Assembly: GCA_951828585.1 (NCBI GenBank)
Contig: OX639991.1
Span: 1,830,576 to 1,894,575 of the forward strand
Origin: Longimicrobiales bacterium
Lineage (GTDB): Bacteria > Gemmatimonadota > Gemmatimonadetes > Longimicrobiales > Gaopeijiaceae
DNA: 64,000 nucleotides
Direction: 5' to 3'
Each line of letters starts with the position of its first letter. Position 1 is the stretch's first letter. The notes beneath the pieces are model-generated. The model was given only the letters and a program-made list of their open reading frames with translations. It was not told the origin of the DNA and made no database searches. Positions 1,691 to 14,567 of this stretch are shown one piece after another. The translations under genes were made by a program, and so were the position numbers.

Positions 1691-4099
1691 ATGATCGTAT
1701 TGTTGGCGGCAATGACGGCCGCGGTCGGGCAGGAAGTGGTAGTCGGAGAGAACGATTCTGGAACGGATGGGACGGACGCCGCGTCGGCCGTGGTCGTCTA
1801 CGACGGCAGCGCGGGGCAGCTCGAAGTCCCCGGCCCCATGGTGGCCGAAGCCGATATCTCGATCGACGGCGAGATCACCGAGGCCGCATGGGCGAACGCC
1901 CCGGTCCTGACCGGCTTCACCCAGTTCGACCCGGTCGAAGGCGTCCCCGCCACGCAGCGCACCGAAGCGCGGGTGCTCCTCACCGACGACGCCATCTACT
2001 TCGCCATAACCGCCTGGGACGACGTGGAGGACGGAATCCGGGCCACCCTCGGCGACCGCGACTCCTTCGCCCGTTCGGACGACTATGTGCGCATCATCCT
2101 CGACACCTTCAACGACCACCGGCGCGGCTACGTCATCATGGTCAACCCGCTTGGGGTCCAGCAGGACGGGCTGTGGGTGGTGGGGGGAGGCGGCGAGCGC
2201 CGCCGCAGGTGGGGTCCGCCGATCGACTGGAATCCGGACTTCGTGTGGGATTCGAGCGGCCGCATCTTCGACGGGGGATACACGGTCGAGGTGAAGGTGC
2301 CCTTCAAGAGCATCCGCTTCCGCAAGACGCCGGTGCAGGACTGGGGACTGCAGATCCACCGCCGCATCGCGCGCAACGGGTACGGTGAATCGTGGGCGCC
2401 AGTGACCGCCGACGTGGCCAACGAGATGGAGCAGTTCGGCACGCTCACCGGGCTCCAGGACCTGAACCCGGGACTGTTCCTCGAGGTCAACCCGGTCCAG
2501 ACGTTCAGCAAGCAGGGCGCGTACGACCCCGGCGCGGATGCGTTCCAGCGCCAGGGGATCGATGGGGACTTCGGGCTCAACCTCACCTACGGCATCACCT
2601 CCAACCTGACCCTCGACGGGACCTACAACCCCGACTTCTCCCAGGTCGAGGCCGACGCGGGCCAGATCGCCGTCAACGAGCGCTTCGCCCTCTTCCTGCG
2701 CGAGAAGCGCCCGTTCTTCCTGGAAGGCACGGAGATCTTCCAGCTTCCGCAACAGCTCGTCTACACGCGCTCGATCGTCAATCCGATCGTGGGGACCAAG
2801 CTGCAGGGAAAGATCGGTTCCTTCAACGCCGGATACCTGGGCGCCCTGGACGAAGTCGACGATCCGGACCAGCCGGGAGAGAACACGCACGCGGTGGTGA
2901 ATCTCTTCCGCCTGCGGCGTGACCTGGGAAGCACCTCCAACGTCGGCATGGTGTACACGGACAGGGCCTTCAACCGCAATCGCTTCAACCGGGTGCTGGG
3001 GGCGGACGGACGCTTCCAGCTGCACCAGCGGTACACGGTCACCCTCCTGGCAGCCGGGAGCCGCGCGGCCCACGGCAGCCCCGAATCCGTCCACGGCGGA
3101 CTCCTGTCGGCACAGCTGGAGCGGTCGGGCCGCAACCTCCAGTTTGAGATCAGCGGCCACGACATCAGCAATGACTTCGAGGCCGGCAGCGGCTTCCTGA
3201 GGCGCACCGGCATCGCCCGGCTGCAGTCGCGGGCGAGCTACAACTTCCGTGGCCGGCCCGGCGACCTGATCGAGAGTTGGGGCCTGAGCCTGGAAACCGA
3301 AGCGTTGTGGACCCACGACGACTTCTGGGCCAGACAGCGGGCCCAGGAGGCCAGTGTACGGCTTGGGGGCAGCGTCTCCTTCCGCGGCAACATCACGGTC
3401 TTCGGCAACTACTCGCACTCGTATTACCGCTTCGAGCGCGACAGCTACTATAACCTCGTCTCCACGAGTGCCGGGGGCGTCAAGCAGGCCTTCTTCCCCG
3501 ACCAGTCGCTCTTCCAGGGTCTGAGCTCGGGCACGGTCTTCTTCTGGATCAATTCCTTCGACCGCGTGCGCGGGAATGTGCGGCTGACGCGGTCCGAGTC
3601 GCCTCTTTTCGACTTCATCAGCGACGCTCCGGTGGACGTGGCTGATTCGTGGTCCGGCGACGCCAGCCTGAACCTCTTTCCCACAACCAATCTCAGCGGT
3701 GAGCTGGGCGTCCGGCACACGAGCCTCTTCCGGCAGCGCGACGGGTCCCTCTACTCGCGGGCCACGATTCCGCGGGTCCGGGCGCAGTACCAGTTCAATC
3801 GTGCGCTGTACCTGCGGGCGATCGTGGAGTACGGAAGCCAGAGGCGGGGCTCCTTGCTTACACCCACCGGGGGGAGCCAGGTTGCATATTGTTCGGACGG
3901 GTCGTGCTTCGACCTGCAGGGGTCGGAGTCCAACGATTTCTCGTTCGAGACGCTGCTGAGCTACGAACCGACCCCGGGGACGGTCTTCTTCATGGGGTAC
4001 ACGCGCCGCATGGAAGACATGGAGGCCTTCCGCTTCCGGGATGTCCGTCCGGAGGCCGAGGGACTGTTCGTGAAACTATCCTACCGGTTCCGGGGGTAG
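1691..4099 (+). CDS. DUF5916 outer-membrane protein with N-terminal carbohydrate-binding-like domain
   Basis: 802 residues. An in-frame TAG directly precedes the ATG, fixing the earliest start. After a short signal peptide comes a CBM9-like beta-sandwich (about residues 50-230, with ISIDGEITEAAW and AIYFAITAWD). Next is the DUF5916 barrel with its hallmark FLREKRPFFLEG near residue 340. It ends in LSYRFRG, as expected of an outer-membrane strand. The family is widespread in Bacteroidota and Gemmatimonadota; its substrate is unknown, with polysaccharide binding or uptake suspected. A small membrane-protein gene follows 42 bases downstream. Confidence 0.85.
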   Translation: MIVLLAAMTAAVGQEVVVGENDSGTDGTDAASAVVVYDGSAGQLEVPGPMVAEADISIDGEITEAAWANAPVLTGFTQFDPVEGVPATQRTEARVLLTDDAIYFAITAWDDVEDGIRATLGDRDSFARSDDYVRIILDTFNDHRRGYVIMVNPLGVQQDGLWVVGGGGERRRRWGPPIDWNPDFVWDSSGRIFDGGYTVEVKVPFKSIRFRKTPVQDWGLQIHRRIARNGYGESWAPVTADVANEMEQFGTLTGLQDLNPGLFLEVNPVQTFSKQGAYDPGADAFQRQGIDGDFGLNLTYGITSNLTLDGTYNPDFSQVEADAGQIAVNERFALFLREKRPFFLEGTEIFQLPQQLVYTRSIVNPIVGTKLQGKIGSFNAGYLGALDEVDDPDQPGENTHAVVNLFRLRRDLGSTSNVGMVYTDRAFNRNRFNRVLGADGRFQLHQRYTVTLLAAGSRAAHGSPESVHGGLLSAQLERSGRNLQFEISGHDISNDFEAGSGFLRRTGIARLQSRASYNFRGRPGDLIESWGLSLETEALWTHDDFWARQRAQEASVRLGGSVSFRGNITVFGNYSHSYYRFERDSYYNLVSTSAGGVKQAFFPDQSLFQGLSSGTVFFWINSFDRVRGNVRLTRSESPLFDFISDAPVDVADSWSGDASLNLFPTTNLSGELGVRHTSLFRQRDGSLYSRATIPRVRAQYQFNRALYLRAIVEYGSQRRGSLLTPTGGSQVAYCSDGSCFDLQGSESNDFSFETLLSYEPTPGTVFFMGYTRRMEDMEAFRFRDVRPEAEGLFVKLSYRFRG

Positions 4100-4141
4100 G
4101 GTAGGGAACGATTCCTGGAACCAGAACAAGGAGATGATGGA

Positions 4142-4345
4142 ATGACGATAAGAGCCGTCGGCGCGGTTGCTGCCACCGGTGTGGTGAGTTTGATTCTGCT
4201 GAAGCTGCTCGCGGCCATCACGGCGCCGCTTGTCGGCATGTTCTTCAGTTTCATGGTGCTGGCCTTCAAGGTCGGGTTGGCGATCGGAGTGGTGTACTTC
4301 CTGTACCGGATGTTCCGGCGGCGGCAGGAGGAGATCGTCGCGTAG
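4142..4345 (+). CDS. Small two-helix membrane protein
   Basis: 67 residues. A good ribosome site (GGAGATGATGG) sits just before the ATG. Two hydrophobic segments (about residues 5-25 and 32-57) are followed by a basic cytoplasmic tail (YRMFRRRQEE). Not recognised. It may be co-transcribed with the DUF5916 gene. It is convergent with the DEAD-like gene, whose stop lies 45 bases away. Confidence 0.6.
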   Translation: MTIRAVGAVAATGVVSLILLKLLAAITAPLVGMFFSFMVLAFKVGLAIGVVYFLYRMFRRRQEEIVA

Positions 4346-4389
4346 GTGTGGTCCGGCTGTCGGGGGACTGCACCCGGCGCTGAACCCTA

Positions 4390-6156
4390 CTACTTCCCCC
4401 GCGGTCGCGAGGGTTTTCCGCCCGGCGGCCATCCCTTTCCACCCGGGCGTCCGGGCTTCCGGCCACCGGGTGACCGCTCTTTGCCGCCCGGCCGCCGTTC
4501 CTTGCTTCCTGGCCGCCGTTCTTTGCTTCCCGGGCGCCGGGGCTTCCGTCCCGAATGCCCTTCCCGGCCACCCGGCCGCCGGTCCCTGCCACTCGGCTGC
4601 CACTCCTTCCCTCCCGGCCGCCGCTCCTTCGCGCGGTCGTAGTCCACGCGCAGGCTGCGCCCCCCCAGCGTGACACCGTTCATCGCCGAGATCACCTTCT
4701 TCGCGTCGCTTTCGCGCACCTCGATCAGGGAATGGCTCTCGCGCACGTCGATGCGCCCCACCCTCTTGCCGGGAACGCCCGATTCGTTGGTCAGCGCGCC
4801 TAGCAGGTCGCCCGGGCCGAGGTCGTCGCGCTTGCCCGCGGTTACGAAGAGGCGGGTCCAGCTCTCGGGCGCGGAGGCGTTGGCCGCGCCGACCGCGGGA
4901 GCCTCCTTCTTCGCGCCCCTGCGATCGAGGAGCATGAGGGCCGCGGCCGCGACTTCCGCCGCAGAGAAGCGGTCCAGCAGCGACTCGACGAGCAGGTAGT
5001 AGGGGGCCATCTCGGGGGCGCGGACCGCTTCGTGAAGGTCGTCGATGCGGGCGTCGAGGGTGGCCGAGACGCGGGGAGGACGGGTGGGGCGGACGCGTTT
5101 GAGGCGCAGGCCGGCGTCGGCGGCGACCTCCTTGAGGTGGCCGGTTTCGCGCACCGCGGCGAGGGCCCAGGCGGGTCCGCCGACCGTGTGGCGAAGGGTC
5201 GCGGCGGCGCTTCCCGTGGGGACCGAGCAGGAAAGCGTTGCGACGGTCTCGGGCTCGTCCATGGCGTCGAGGGCCTCGCGGGCGGCCTCGTCCTCGCCGG
5301 GGGAGAGCCAGACGGGGACGGTCTCGTCGCCGGGGGGCCCGGAGCCGTAGCCGTGCATGGCAAGAAAGTCCCCCAGGTCCGCCGCCTGGTCCGCCGACGA
5401 GACAAAGATCAGCACGTGGCGGATGGGATCTTCCAGCAGCGTGGCGGTGAGCGCCAGCGCCGACTCCCAGCGGTCCCCCTCGAGCACGATGAGGTTGAGT
5501 TCGCGGGAGGACTCGTCGGTCGATGGCTTTTTCTTGCGGGGTTTTCCCGCGGATTGACGCGGCCCGGCCGGAACGGTGGCGGCCCGGTGCGTGAAGCGTT
5601 GGGCGAGCGAGCGCAGCGGGAGGCCGAAGGGAAGGCCGCAGAAGATGCGCTGGCACTCCTTGGGCAAGCCCGTCAGTAAAGCCTCGAGGTGATCGGCGGG
5701 GACGCCCTTGACCACACCGTCGCCGTCGTGCAGGACGAGTGCCTGGACGTGCGTGACGTCAATGGACCGGTCGTACAGCGCCTGCACGCGGTCGGCTGGG
5801 ACGAAGAGGAAGTCGGCGCGTTCGGGGAGCAGCCAGTTTTCGGCCAGCGCGGCCGCACGCGCTCCGGAGGCCTCGCAGAGGCGCGCGAAGGACCTTGCAA
5901 GTTCGGTGGCTTGGCGCTGCCCCGCGCAGAGGACCAGGCAGACGGGCGCGCCATGGCCCCCCTTGAGCCGGTCCAGCAGGGGTGCGCCGTAGCCGACGAG
6001 GGTGCCGCTGCCCGGCCCGGCCCGGCCCATGAGGTCGTTGCCGCGCGCGATGACGGGGATCGCCGCCGCCTGGAAGGGGGTGGGCGTCTCGATGCCCTCG
6101 GCCGCGAGTGCTGCGACGGTTTCGGGGCCGAGGGGAAGGTCTTCGAAGGATGTCAT
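4390..6156 (-). CDS. DEAD-box-like pseudo-helicase with DbpA-type RNA-binding domain and basic repeat tail
   Basis: 588 residues with the layout of a DEAD-box RNA helicase: a Q-motif-like TPTPFQ near residue 26, two RecA-like domains, a DbpA/CsdA-type RNA-binding domain at about residues 435-510 (RLFVTAG, then VGRIDVRESHSLIEV), and a tail of RRPGGKE-type repeats. The catalytic motifs are lost. Motif I reads AGPGSGTL, with Thr in place of the essential Lys. Motif II reads HDGD where DEAD is expected. PTREL, SAT and HRxGRxxR are not recognisable. It probably binds RNA without hydrolysing ATP. A complete DEAD-box helicase lies at 13.3 kb. Confidence 0.8.
   Translation of the reverse strand: MTSFEDLPLGPETVAALAAEGIETPTPFQAAAIPVIARGNDLMGRAGPGSGTLVGYGAPLLDRLKGGHGAPVCLVLCAGQRQATELARSFARLCEASGARAAALAENWLLPERADFLFVPADRVQALYDRSIDVTHVQALVLHDGDGVVKGVPADHLEALLTGLPKECQRIFCGLPFGLPLRSLAQRFTHRAATVPAGPRQSAGKPRKKKPSTDESSRELNLIVLEGDRWESALALTATLLEDPIRHVLIFVSSADQAADLGDFLAMHGYGSGPPGDETVPVWLSPGEDEAAREALDAMDEPETVATLSCSVPTGSAAATLRHTVGGPAWALAAVRETGHLKEVAADAGLRLKRVRPTRPPRVSATLDARIDDLHEAVRAPEMAPYYLLVESLLDRFSAAEVAAAALMLLDRRGAKKEAPAVGAANASAPESWTRLFVTAGKRDDLGPGDLLGALTNESGVPGKRVGRIDVRESHSLIEVRESDAKKVISAMNGVTLGGRSLRVDYDRAKERRPGGKEWQPSGRDRRPGGREGHSGRKPRRPGSKERRPGSKERRPGGKERSPGGRKPGRPGGKGWPPGGKPSRPRGK
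4400..4640. repeat. Degenerate short tandem repeats coding the basic tail of the pseudo-helicase
   Basis: Units of about 18-24 bases based on GGCCGCCGTTCCTTGCTTCC recur across this stretch. On the minus strand they encode RPGGKE- or RPGSKE-like units. The tail is Arg/Lys/Gly/Pro-rich and likely disordered, like RGG-type tails that bind RNA. Confidence 0.65.
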
Positions 6157-6173
6157 CGGCGGGGGTCAGCAGT

Positions 6174-6290
6174 CCGTGGATAGAGCCGCCCGAGCACCGA
6201 GAGCGGTGAGGCGCCGGGCTGGCAAGGCGCGACGAAGGGCGAATAGCACCGCTATTCGTCCGAGGAGCAACGCAGAGCGGAGCCGCGAAC
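6174..6290 (+). repeat. Dispersed GC-rich repeat, copy A
   Basis: Runs from CCGTGGAT through a GAGCACCG..GCGGTGAGGCGCCGGG arm to a core at 6251-6282 containing GCTATTCGTCCGAGGAGC. By eye the core matches 29 of 32 bases with the reverse complement of 38306-38337. The first arm matches about 80 percent with the reverse complement of 49261-49318. It is intergenic, upstream of the pseudo-helicase, and no reading frame is evident. Confidence 0.65.
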
Positions 6291-6311
6291 GGGCGACAAG
6301 TATAGTACACA

Positions 6312-6324
6312 TTACAATCTGTAA
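6312..6324. promoter_or_regulatory. Perfect TTACA-N3-TGTAA palindrome in an AT-rich patch
   Basis: TTACAATCTGTAA is a perfect dyad with a 3-base centre, within an AT-rich stretch (6298-6346) of otherwise GC-rich DNA. A near-identical dyad lies at 21426-21438. It is an operator-like site upstream of the minus-strand gene starting at 6156. TACA/TGTA dyads are known for BlaI/MecI-type repressors, but the spacing differs and no such regulator is seen here. Confidence 0.4.
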
Positions 6325-6346
6325 GGTATAGTTTACTGTGTGACTA

Positions 6347-6388
6347 ATTCGAGCGAAGCGTCCAGCGCGGATGCATCGCCGCTCGAAT
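6347..6388. terminator. Nine-base hairpin downstream of the 6422-6724 gene
   Basis: ATTCGAGCG (6347-6355) pairs with CGCTCGAAT (6380-6388) around a 24-base loop. It lies just past the stop codon of the minus-strand gene. There is no clear U-tract, so termination is only suggested. Confidence 0.3.
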
Positions 6389-6421
6389 GCCGGGGGGATT
6401 CTGTCCACGGGCTGCGTAGTC

Positions 6422-6724
6422 CTAGTCGGGATCGCCGGAGCCGGGGCCGCCGGCGTCGCCGTACTCGTAGGGGAGATGGTTGAGAAAGCGCTGGATCTCG
6501 TAGTCCATGCGCGATGTGCGGAGCCGGTCGGTGCGCGCCGTGACGTCCGTAAACGGGCCGTGCCGGTGGACGGAGAGGACCACCGTGCCCTCGTCGCCGG
6601 TGTAGGTGGCGCCATGGGAAGACTGCTTCGACCTGCTGAGGCCGATGTAGACCGGGAGGAGTTCCTCGGCCCGTGCCAGGACCTCCGCCGGAGCGAGCGC
6701 CGTCTTGCGTTCGTATCCCGCCAT
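6422..6724 (-). CDS. Conserved-looking hypothetical protein
   Basis: 100 residues, soluble, with no signal peptide. A GAGGAG ribosome site lies upstream of the ATG. The N-terminus looks helical (PAEVLARAEELLPVYIG). A strand-rich middle (GTVVLSVHRHGPFTDVTARTD) is followed by an acidic, Gly/Pro-rich tail. The start is 9 bases after the stop of the DsbA-family gene, so the two are probably co-transcribed. Not recognised. Confidence 0.6.
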   Translation of the reverse strand: MAGYERKTALAPAEVLARAEELLPVYIGLSRSKQSSHGATYTGDEGTVVLSVHRHGPFTDVTARTDRLRTSRMDYEIQRFLNHLPYEYGDAGGPGSGDPD

Positions 6725-6733
6725 TTTTTCCGT

Positions 6734-7336
6734 CTACTCCTCTTTTGCTGCTTCGAGTTCGTTCCTGATCCACCGTGTCCACCGCGCGATTTCGGCCGCC
6801 GTGGCCAGGCCTTCCAGGCGACGGTCGCCCGCAACGAGGGCCGGGACCACCGAAATCCCGTGCTCCCGGGCCGCCTCCCGCTGCTCCAGGACGACACGGG
6901 TGAAGCGGTCCACGTCCAGCACGGCCTTGGCCTCGGTGCGGTCCAGTCCGGCGCGGTGCGCGATGTCAACCAGCAAATCTATCCGCCCGATGTCGGTTCG
7001 GTCGACGAAGTGGGCCTCGAACAATGCGCGCCGGACGGCGTGGTAACAATCCCCCTCGCGGGCGAACTCGGCCAGTTCGTGGGCCTTGCGGGTCCACGGC
7101 ACGAGCTGCGGAGTATGCATTGGGACGCCGATTTCGCGGGCGCATTCGACAGCCTGGGCCTGGTAGGCGGACCAGTCGGCAGAGGTGGGATCGATCAGCG
7201 GGCGGGGGGGAGGCCGGAGCTCGAAACCCCGCCATTCGACCGCGTCCGCCGCACCCGCCTCATCGATCAGGTGTGCGGCGAGGCGTGAACCGGGATCGGT
7301 TAGATCGAAGTAGAAGGCGGGGGCTCGCTTCGGCAT
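6734..7336 (-). CDS. DsbA-family oxidoreductase / 2-hydroxychromene-2-carboxylate isomerase-like
   Basis: 200 residues with a FrnE/HCCA-isomerase layout of the DsbA superfamily: an N-terminal FYFDLTDPGSR strand-turn where DsbA carries CxxC, the helical insertion (TRKAHELAEFARE, RALFEAHFVDRTDIG), and the cis-Pro loop SVVPALV. There is no CxxC, so it is probably a glutathione-dependent isomerase-like or non-redox member and not a disulfide oxidant. No signal peptide. The ATG at 7336 is chosen because the family N-terminus begins there. Divergent from the aminotransferase gene. Confidence 0.7.
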   Translation of the reverse strand: MPKRAPAFYFDLTDPGSRLAAHLIDEAGAADAVEWRGFELRPPPRPLIDPTSADWSAYQAQAVECAREIGVPMHTPQLVPWTRKAHELAEFAREGDCYHAVRRALFEAHFVDRTDIGRIDLLVDIAHRAGLDRTEAKAVLDVDRFTRVVLEQREAAREHGISVVPALVAGDRRLEGLATAAEIARWTRWIRNELEAAKEE

Positions 7337-13310: not shown

Positions 13311-14567
13311 TTGACCGAATCGACGAACTTTTCGGCCTTCGGGCTCTCTCCGCTCCGACTGGCCGCCATCGAGTCCCAGGGCTGGACCCTGCCGACCCCC
13401 ATTCAGCAGCAGGCCATTCCTCTTGTCGCGGACGGGCGGGACGTGGTCGGGATCGCCCGTACCGGGACCGGGAAGACGGGCGCCTTCATGCTGCCCGCGC
13501 TGGAGAGAATCGAAGAGGGGGCCGGGCTGCAGGTGCTGGTGCTGTGCCCCACCCGTGAGCTCGCGCAGCAGGTCTGCGAGGACACGGAGGCGCTGGCCGC
13601 CGGTTCGAAGGTGCGCTCGTCGGTGATCCACGGAGGGGTCGCCTACGGGCCGCAACTGGATGCGCTGGCCCGTGGGGACGAGGTGATCGTCGCCACCCCG
13701 GGACGCCTCATCGACCTGCAGCAGCGCGGCAAGGCGAAGCTGAAGGGCGTCCGCCTGCTGATCCTCGACGAGGCCGACCGCATGCTGGACATGGGGTTCC
13801 GGCCGCAGATCGAGGATGTGGTGCGCGGACTCGGGCGGCGGCCGCAGACCCTCCTCTTCTCGGCCACGATGCCCAACGCCGTCCACGCCCTGGCGCTGCG
13901 CATGACCCGTGACCCCGCCTGGATCGAGGTCACCCCCTCGGGCACGATGGCACAGGGGATCTCCGAGATCGCGTATTCGGTGCGGCCGGAACTGAAGCCC
14001 GACCTTCTGATCCACCTCCTGGCCCAGCCGGGATGGGAGCAGGTGCTCGTCTTCACCCGCACCAAGATCGGCGCCAATACCCTGCAGTCGCGACTGGAAA
14101 AGGCCCACATCTCCTGCGACGCGATTCATTCGGACCGGCAGATGCGCCACCGGACCCGCGCGATGGAGCGGTTCAGCGACGGCGAGGTGCGAGTACTGGT
14201 CGCGACCGACATCGCGCAACGGGGGCTGGACATCGAGGGGATCTCGCATGTGGTCAACTATGACGTGCCGCTCGACCCGGGCGACTACGTGCACCGCATT
14301 GGGCGGACGGGCAGGGCGGGGGCGACGGGCGAGGCCGTGACCTTCGTGACCGCGTCGGACATTGGAGCGTTCCGAACCCTGGAGTTCCAACTGGAGCGCC
14401 GGCTGGACAAGGTGCACCATCCGGACTTCGACTTCGCGGGAGGCGTGGTCATGGAGCGCAGGGAGCCTTCGCGGGCGCGTTCCAGGTCGGGGCGCGGCAT
14501 GGGGAGCAAGGCCGGGAAGCAGCTCGCGCCGGATGAGTTGGCGGCGCTGCTGAGCCACGAGGACTGA
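13311..14567 (+). CDS. DEAD-box ATP-dependent RNA helicase (RhlE-like)
   Basis: 418 residues with all motifs intact: Q motif TPIQQQAIP, motif I ARTGTGKT, Ia PTREL, Ib TPGRLID, II DEAD, III SAT, V ATDIAQRGLDI, VI HRIGRTGRAG. The short basic C-terminal tail fits the RhlE group, which acts in ribosome assembly and RNA turnover. The start is a TTG: the frame has a TGA at 13293 and no ATG between. An overlapping ATG at 13306 encodes only two codons. It is the active counterpart of the motif-less protein at 4.4-6.2 kb. Confidence 0.92.
   Translation: MTESTNFSAFGLSPLRLAAIESQGWTLPTPIQQQAIPLVADGRDVVGIARTGTGKTGAFMLPALERIEEGAGLQVLVLCPTRELAQQVCEDTEALAAGSKVRSSVIHGGVAYGPQLDALARGDEVIVATPGRLIDLQQRGKAKLKGVRLLILDEADRMLDMGFRPQIEDVVRGLGRRPQTLLFSATMPNAVHALALRMTRDPAWIEVTPSGTMAQGISEIAYSVRPELKPDLLIHLLAQPGWEQVLVFTRTKIGANTLQSRLEKAHISCDAIHSDRQMRHRTRAMERFSDGEVRVLVATDIAQRGLDIEGISHVVNYDVPLDPGDYVHRIGRTGRAGATGEAVTFVTASDIGAFRTLEFQLERRLDKVHHPDFDFAGGVVMERREPSRARSRSGRGMGSKAGKQLAPDELAALLSHED

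Follow-up and report, generated by a model that had tools for sequence, protein, structure and literature searches.

A DEAD-box-derived protein retained across the class Gemmatimonadetes without its catalytic motifs: a pseudohelicase proposed to act as an RNA-binding scaffold

Introduction

Can a protein built on the plan of a DEAD-box RNA helicase be kept by bacteria after its catalytic motifs have gone and, if so, for what? The question is raised by an open reading frame on the minus strand, positions 4390–6156, of the 64,000-nucleotide stretch of DNA analysed here (the window), whose host genome is a single contig of 4.47 Mb. Named relatives of the gene come from metagenome-assembled genomes (MAGs) of Gemmatimonadetes/Longimicrobiales. 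A sequence-only reading had described the product as a catalytically dead DEAD-box protein that kept a DbpA-type RNA-binding domain. It had suggested selection for a non-enzymatic role, such as that of an RNA chaperone or ribosome-assembly scaffold, with an active helicase at 13.3 kb perhaps supplying the ATPase.

Results

A DEAD-box-derived core joined to a DbpA-type RRM

The reading frame starts with ATG and runs for 588 codons plus a stop, in agreement with the full-length frame first described. Pfam searches of the 588-aa product identified a DbpA RRM (PF03880) at residues 435–504 (E = 2.5e-22; 79.2 bits against a cut-off of 25.6). The DEAD domain fell just under its cut-off (E = 1.1e-5; 25.7 bits against 26.0), the DeaD dimerisation domain (PF25399) scored 12.1 bits against a cut-off of 23, and the NCBIfam DbpA equivalog NF008744 scored 107 bits, short of its curated cut-off of 524. 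Searching the PDB with phmmer matched DbpA, Hera and CshA at E ~1e-15 to 1e-16. This sequence similarity, together with a structural match of the first RecA domain to 5gju, places DEAD-box homology above chance and, with Pfam, bears out the layout originally proposed.

From N to C terminus, the protein has a two-RecA core of DEAD-box origin, a helical segment of DeaD type, a DbpA-type RRM and, last, a basic tail. All parts lie on the minus strand: the RecA1-like domain, residues 1–195, at 5572–6156; the RecA2-like domain, residues 219–356, at 5089–5502; the helical segment, residues 357–412, at 4921–5088; the RRM, residues 433–508, at 4633–4860; and the Gly/Pro-rich tail, residues 509–588, with 28 R/K and 7 D/E, at 4393–4632.

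An AlphaFold2 model built on 68 homologues reached pLDDT values above 90 over most of the two RecA domains and of the RRM and fell below 50 in the tail, which is predicted to be disordered; the pTM of 0.66 makes domain placement uncertain. The predicted RecA1 domain superimposed on the DEAD-box domain 5gju with a Z score of 27.9 (2.0 Å over 196 residues). The modelled RecA pair matched eIF4A, CshA and others up to residue 357, with a high rmsd that is due to domain orientation, and the full model matched DEAD-box proteins including CshA, Hera and DbpA. The two tandem RecA-like domains that characterize DEAD-box helicases are, according to the model's fold, both present. With hhalign, the helical segment that follows RecA2 aligned with its counterpart in active Gemmatimonadota DeaD proteins (98.5%); the region had been preselected from a joint alignment, so this result checks consistency and is not an independent finding.

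Loss of the catalytic and RNA-contact motifs

The protein was read motif by motif using E. coli DeaD as the alignment reference. The Q motif is retained (TPFQ), and motif IV reads FVSS. Motif I (GPGSGT, continuing to PGSGTL) has lost its Lys, motif Ia is AGQRQ where PTREL is gone, motif II is HDGD rather than DEAD, and motif III is GLP where SAT is gone; motifs V (ARGLD) and VI (HRIGRTGR) are absent from the RecA2-like domain. The missing Lys and the HDGD sequence were as first reported, as were the unrecognizable motifs Ia, III and VI, to which motif V is now added. Judged from these residues, the protein has very likely lost catalytic activity.

Conservation of the degenerate protein across the genus and the class

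Full-length orthologues were found in 22 of 23 same-genus genomes, the host's own included, at ~61–86% identity outside self. All 22 lack the motif I Lys and carry HDGD. The one same-genus genome without the gene (G011) is much smaller, at 2.8 Mb. Some orthologue search matches contained in-frame stops; the re-extracted open reading frames were full length, which places these stops in the variable tail, at the natural terminus or past it. Independent assemblies yielded the 22 genus orthologues and dozens of others, which rules out a sequencing or frame artefact.

A scan of public genomes carried the pattern beyond the genus, as did a class-wide sample, in which 52 of 61 Gemmatimonadetes genomes contained a DbpA RRM and nine had none; it was not found in six sampled genomes outside the class (family f11). 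The degenerate protein occurred in at least 43 of the 61, in a tally that drew on 40 examined regions together with the genus and order members and covered 47 of the 52 RRM-bearing genomes. Four of the 61 had an active DeaD–DbpA helicase without a degenerate copy, and some genomes, including G076, G070, G086, G025 and G027, had both. The active Gemmatimonadota DeaD–DbpA helicases, which are the nearest active homologues, keep all ten motifs. The sequence-only reading had raised the possibility that orthologues are intact and only this copy is degraded. No member of the clade had the intact set, all full-length relatives examined showed the loss, and intact proteins were confined to the active DeaD–DbpA helicases, which are separate paralogues.

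Purifying selection on the folded domains

Substitution rates were estimated over residues 1–508 against the three nearest species (dS 0.41–0.45). The dN/dS ratio was 0.16–0.17 overall, 0.12–0.16 for RecA1, 0.16–0.21 for the RecA2-like domain and 0.075–0.084 for the RRM, which also had the highest mean JS conservation of any domain (0.63); linkers and tail were mostly under looser constraint. As a control, the active RhlE-like helicase gave ~0.08–0.10 in the same genomes and 0.11 in a fourth, more distant genome. Every folded domain of the protein is under purifying selection, and what is conserved is the fold, not the chemistry.

These data bear on whether the gene is a decaying pseudogene or reflects a recent loss in one lineage, a reading for which the lost catalytic motifs and the variable tail and linkers might be cited. 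A high nonsynonymous rate had been named at the outset as the sign of decay; the ratio of ~0.16 is instead close to that of the RhlE control (~0.08–0.11). Furthermore, conservation is class-wide, the reading frames in relatives are uninterrupted, and HDGD is invariant in the 22 genus orthologues despite synonymous changes at D144 and G147. Decay is therefore ruled out by dN/dS and conservation, and we assign this explanation, recent loss included, a negligible probability. Conservation of the dead version across the whole class instead makes a useful job probable.

A single clade with graded motif loss

In a tree of 80 proteins (LG+C20), the 60 degenerate proteins included formed one clade (SH-aLRT 100; stem length 1.12), which stayed single when class-wide members were added (93 rows). 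A single class-wide clade rules out horizontal acquisition or an isolated oddity. One member (L075, isolate Ww582) comes from a record titled Gammaproteobacteria; it groups within the Gemmatimonadota clade, has the gene order seen there, and is likely a mislabelled or mixed MAG. The sister group was the active Gemmatimonadota DeaD–DbpA proteins, with weak support (80), a relationship that is provisional because the stem is long and composition is variable.

Motifs V and VI are missing from every examined clade member that spans them, and motifs II and III from nearly all. On the 80-row tree, parsimony required the motif I Lys to change at least three times and the motif II Glu once. GKT is kept and DEAD lost in deep lineages (L027, L030, L083, L085, L091–L095 and L106 among them), and motif I of L097 reads GSGRT. 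In families f6 and f7 and most proteins of f4, the Q/P-loop region is eroded too, with the RRM still kept. The clade as a whole forms a graded series, from Lys kept and DEAD lost, through Lys lost, to eroded N-terminal motifs. L160 (G065), a distant member, is the only one to retain DEAD; its motif I is GSGHE, without the Lys, and it has neither motif V nor motif VI, an order of loss opposite to that of the GKT-retaining lineages.

Could HDGD, invariant within the genus, mark a cryptically active enzyme with a non-canonical catalytic arrangement? The motif I Lys has been lost together with the Glu of motif II and the arginines of motif VI, and outside the clade around the window's genus HDGD is not conserved; we regard such an enzyme as very unlikely.

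The nucleotide pocket and the RRM surface

The AlphaFold2 model predicts two well-ordered RecA domains, and the state of the nucleotide pocket was read from column conservation. Eleven columns are invariant among 68 full-length members (Q29, G49, G51, G269, P313, H340, G441, A454, G467, R500 and R508), and three of these fall within the seven Q/motif-I positions (hypergeometric p ~2.5e-4); F4 is nearly invariant. The near-invariance of F4, Q29, G49 and G51 means that nucleotide binding without hydrolysis may persist in the window's lineage.

The protein could, on this evidence, be a nucleotide sensor: the Q motif and the P-loop backbone would bind ATP or ADP without hydrolysing it, and the bound state would switch RNA or partner binding. 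These four positions are among the most conserved of the core in the 68 members, and GKT is kept in deep lineages. On the other hand, the motif I Lys has been lost at least three times, the glycines and Q-motif segment may be retained for folding, and f6, f7 and most f4 proteins have lost the Q motif along with much of the P-loop, so that the pocket is not essential to the family. From the sequences, a kept pocket is not a class-wide requirement, and we consider a sensor conceivable but rather improbable.

In the RRM, G453–A454 aligns with the contact positions G423–T424 of YxiN, and N457 with K427 of YxiN (YxiN residues from PMC3695512). With N457 in place of K427, exact YxiN-like specificity is not assured.

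A conserved 100-aa neighbour

Immediately upstream on the same strand lies a gene for an uncharacterized 100-aa protein (6422–6724, minus strand). It was near the pseudohelicase gene in 58 relative loci, with a gap of −1 to 64 nt in most of those measured. Conservation of the protein is high, with a mean column identity of 67%; its matches in families outside the order are weak, and no Pfam or NCBIfam family was found for it. In the class sample, 49 genomes had both the 100-aa gene and a DbpA RRM, three the RRM only, two the small protein only and seven neither. The association was significant over genomes (Fisher p ~9e-6) and with one genome per genus (7e-4), uncorrected for phylogeny and with the RRM count taking in active DeaD–DbpA copies. 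Linkage and co-occurrence make the 100-aa gene a likely operon partner; the two genes form an apparent operon, although linkage alone does not prove interaction. A confident alpha/beta model was predicted for the small protein. Fold searches gave middling KA1-like and SRPBCC-type matches, the best being 2zfd_B (Z 10.0; 2.0 Å over 84 residues), and Foldseek returned nothing at E < 1e-3.

In the window, the two genes are separated by a dispersed repeat of ~171 bp (6175–6345) that ends ~18 nt upstream of the pseudohelicase start codon. Across the genome it has at least 57 matches, in places arranged in tandem with ~171-bp spacing. No Rfam RNA was found in 3800–7000.

The RhlE-like helicase at 13.3 kb

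The helicase noted at 13.3 kb is real: an RhlE-like protein encoded at 13311–14567 on the plus strand, 7 kb from the pseudohelicase gene, assigned by Pfam/NCBIfam and motif alignment, with every motif intact. It is the only canonical DEAD-box RNA helicase in the window's genome, and the only DbpA RRM there is that of the dead protein. In relatives the RhlE gene is syntenic, ~3–6 kb from the pseudohelicase start and on the opposite strand. Since the metabolic genes between the two are likewise syntenic, we reject the linkage as proof of partnership. Of the suggestion that RhlE supplies the ATPase, its being the sole canonical helicase and its synteny are circumstantial evidence.

Metabolic neighbours might also suggest that the dead core now serves a non-RNA function, with the RRM used for protein contacts; RRMs can bind protein, and the RNA-contact motifs of the RecA core are gone. 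The RRM is nevertheless the most conserved domain and recognizably DbpA-type, and the tail is basic. We think such moonlighting unlikely.

Discussion

Purifying selection and class-wide retention uphold the proposal that the protein is selected for something other than catalysis; a chaperone or scaffold role is suggested by the kept DbpA RRM and core. We consider it reasonably probable that this class-wide bacterial pseudohelicase is an ATP-independent RNA- or rRNA-binding scaffold, probably dimeric and probably engaged in ribosome assembly. A ribosome or RNA scaffold, proposed by analogy with relatives, is our best guess, held with some reservation. Against it stand the near-invariance of F4, Q29, G49 and G51, for which a pure scaffold has no obvious use, the sub-threshold PF25399 score as regards a dimer, and the DEAD sequence retained by L160 (G065).

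We envisage that a DeaD/CsdA-type helicase with a DbpA RRM was duplicated, probably early in the class Gemmatimonadetes, and that one duplicate lost its catalytic and RNA-gripping motifs, most members keeping the two-RecA fold, helical segment and RRM. The protein would act without ATP hydrolysis, probably as a dimer, its RRM and basic tail holding structured RNA. By family analogy this RNA could be 23S rRNA near hairpin 92: characterized DbpA-RRM helicases function in 50S maturation (PMC8190605), and likeness to DbpA, CsdA and YxiN would point to a role in 50S assembly. The analogy for the RNA target is weakened because the RBDs of Hera and YxiN bind different RNA elements (PMC3695512). The dead RecA core would offer partner proteins a rigid surface on which to dock; plausible partners are the 100-aa protein and, perhaps, an active helicase such as RhlE. 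More tentatively, much of the class may have replaced a DbpA/CsdA-type ribosome-assembly helicase with an ATP-independent module of pseudohelicase and 100-aa protein, RhlE being the sole active DEAD-box RNA helicase in genomes like the window's.

Together with the active paralogues, the motif-loss series offers a natural experiment in the functions of an RNA helicase's RecA core other than ATP consumption. The family also directs attention to the uncharacterized 100-aa partner gene, and it warns that Gemmatimonadota proteins recognized by domain searches as DEAD-box helicases may not be helicases.

Searches of the open literature, with most subscription journals outside coverage, returned no report of a bacterial DEAD-box pseudohelicase and no earlier description of this protein family. 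The few pseudohelicases known from that literature are Utp25 of eukaryotes and Deinococcus radiodurans PriA. The latter is likewise a retained bacterial helicase homologue reported as a pseudohelicase, but it is a DNA replication restart protein and not DEAD-box (PMC4504706). Utp25/Def of the SSU processome has a DEAD-box-derived two-RecA fold without DEAD sequence and acts in ribosome assembly, and its remaining motifs are dispensable (PMC9539457). Pseudohelicases of the Utp25 type are defined by a helicase fold that persists under purifying selection although the orthologues have lost its catalytic motifs, and this is also what we observe here. Utp25/Def differs in being eukaryotic, of another lineage and on the small-subunit side, with an N-terminal disordered extension and no DbpA RRM described. 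Thermus thermophilus Hera is similar in its arrangement of RecA fold, RRM-like RBD and basic C-terminal tail, with a dimerization domain where the 588-aa protein has its putatively dimerizing helical segment (PMC3695512 for Hera), but is an active ATP-dependent helicase. DeaD/CsdA and DbpA/YxiN have the same two RecA domains, DeaD-type helical region and DbpA RRM; they are enzymes with all ATPase and RNA-contact motifs, whereas the 588-aa protein lacks the motif I Lys and motifs Ia, II, III, V and VI.
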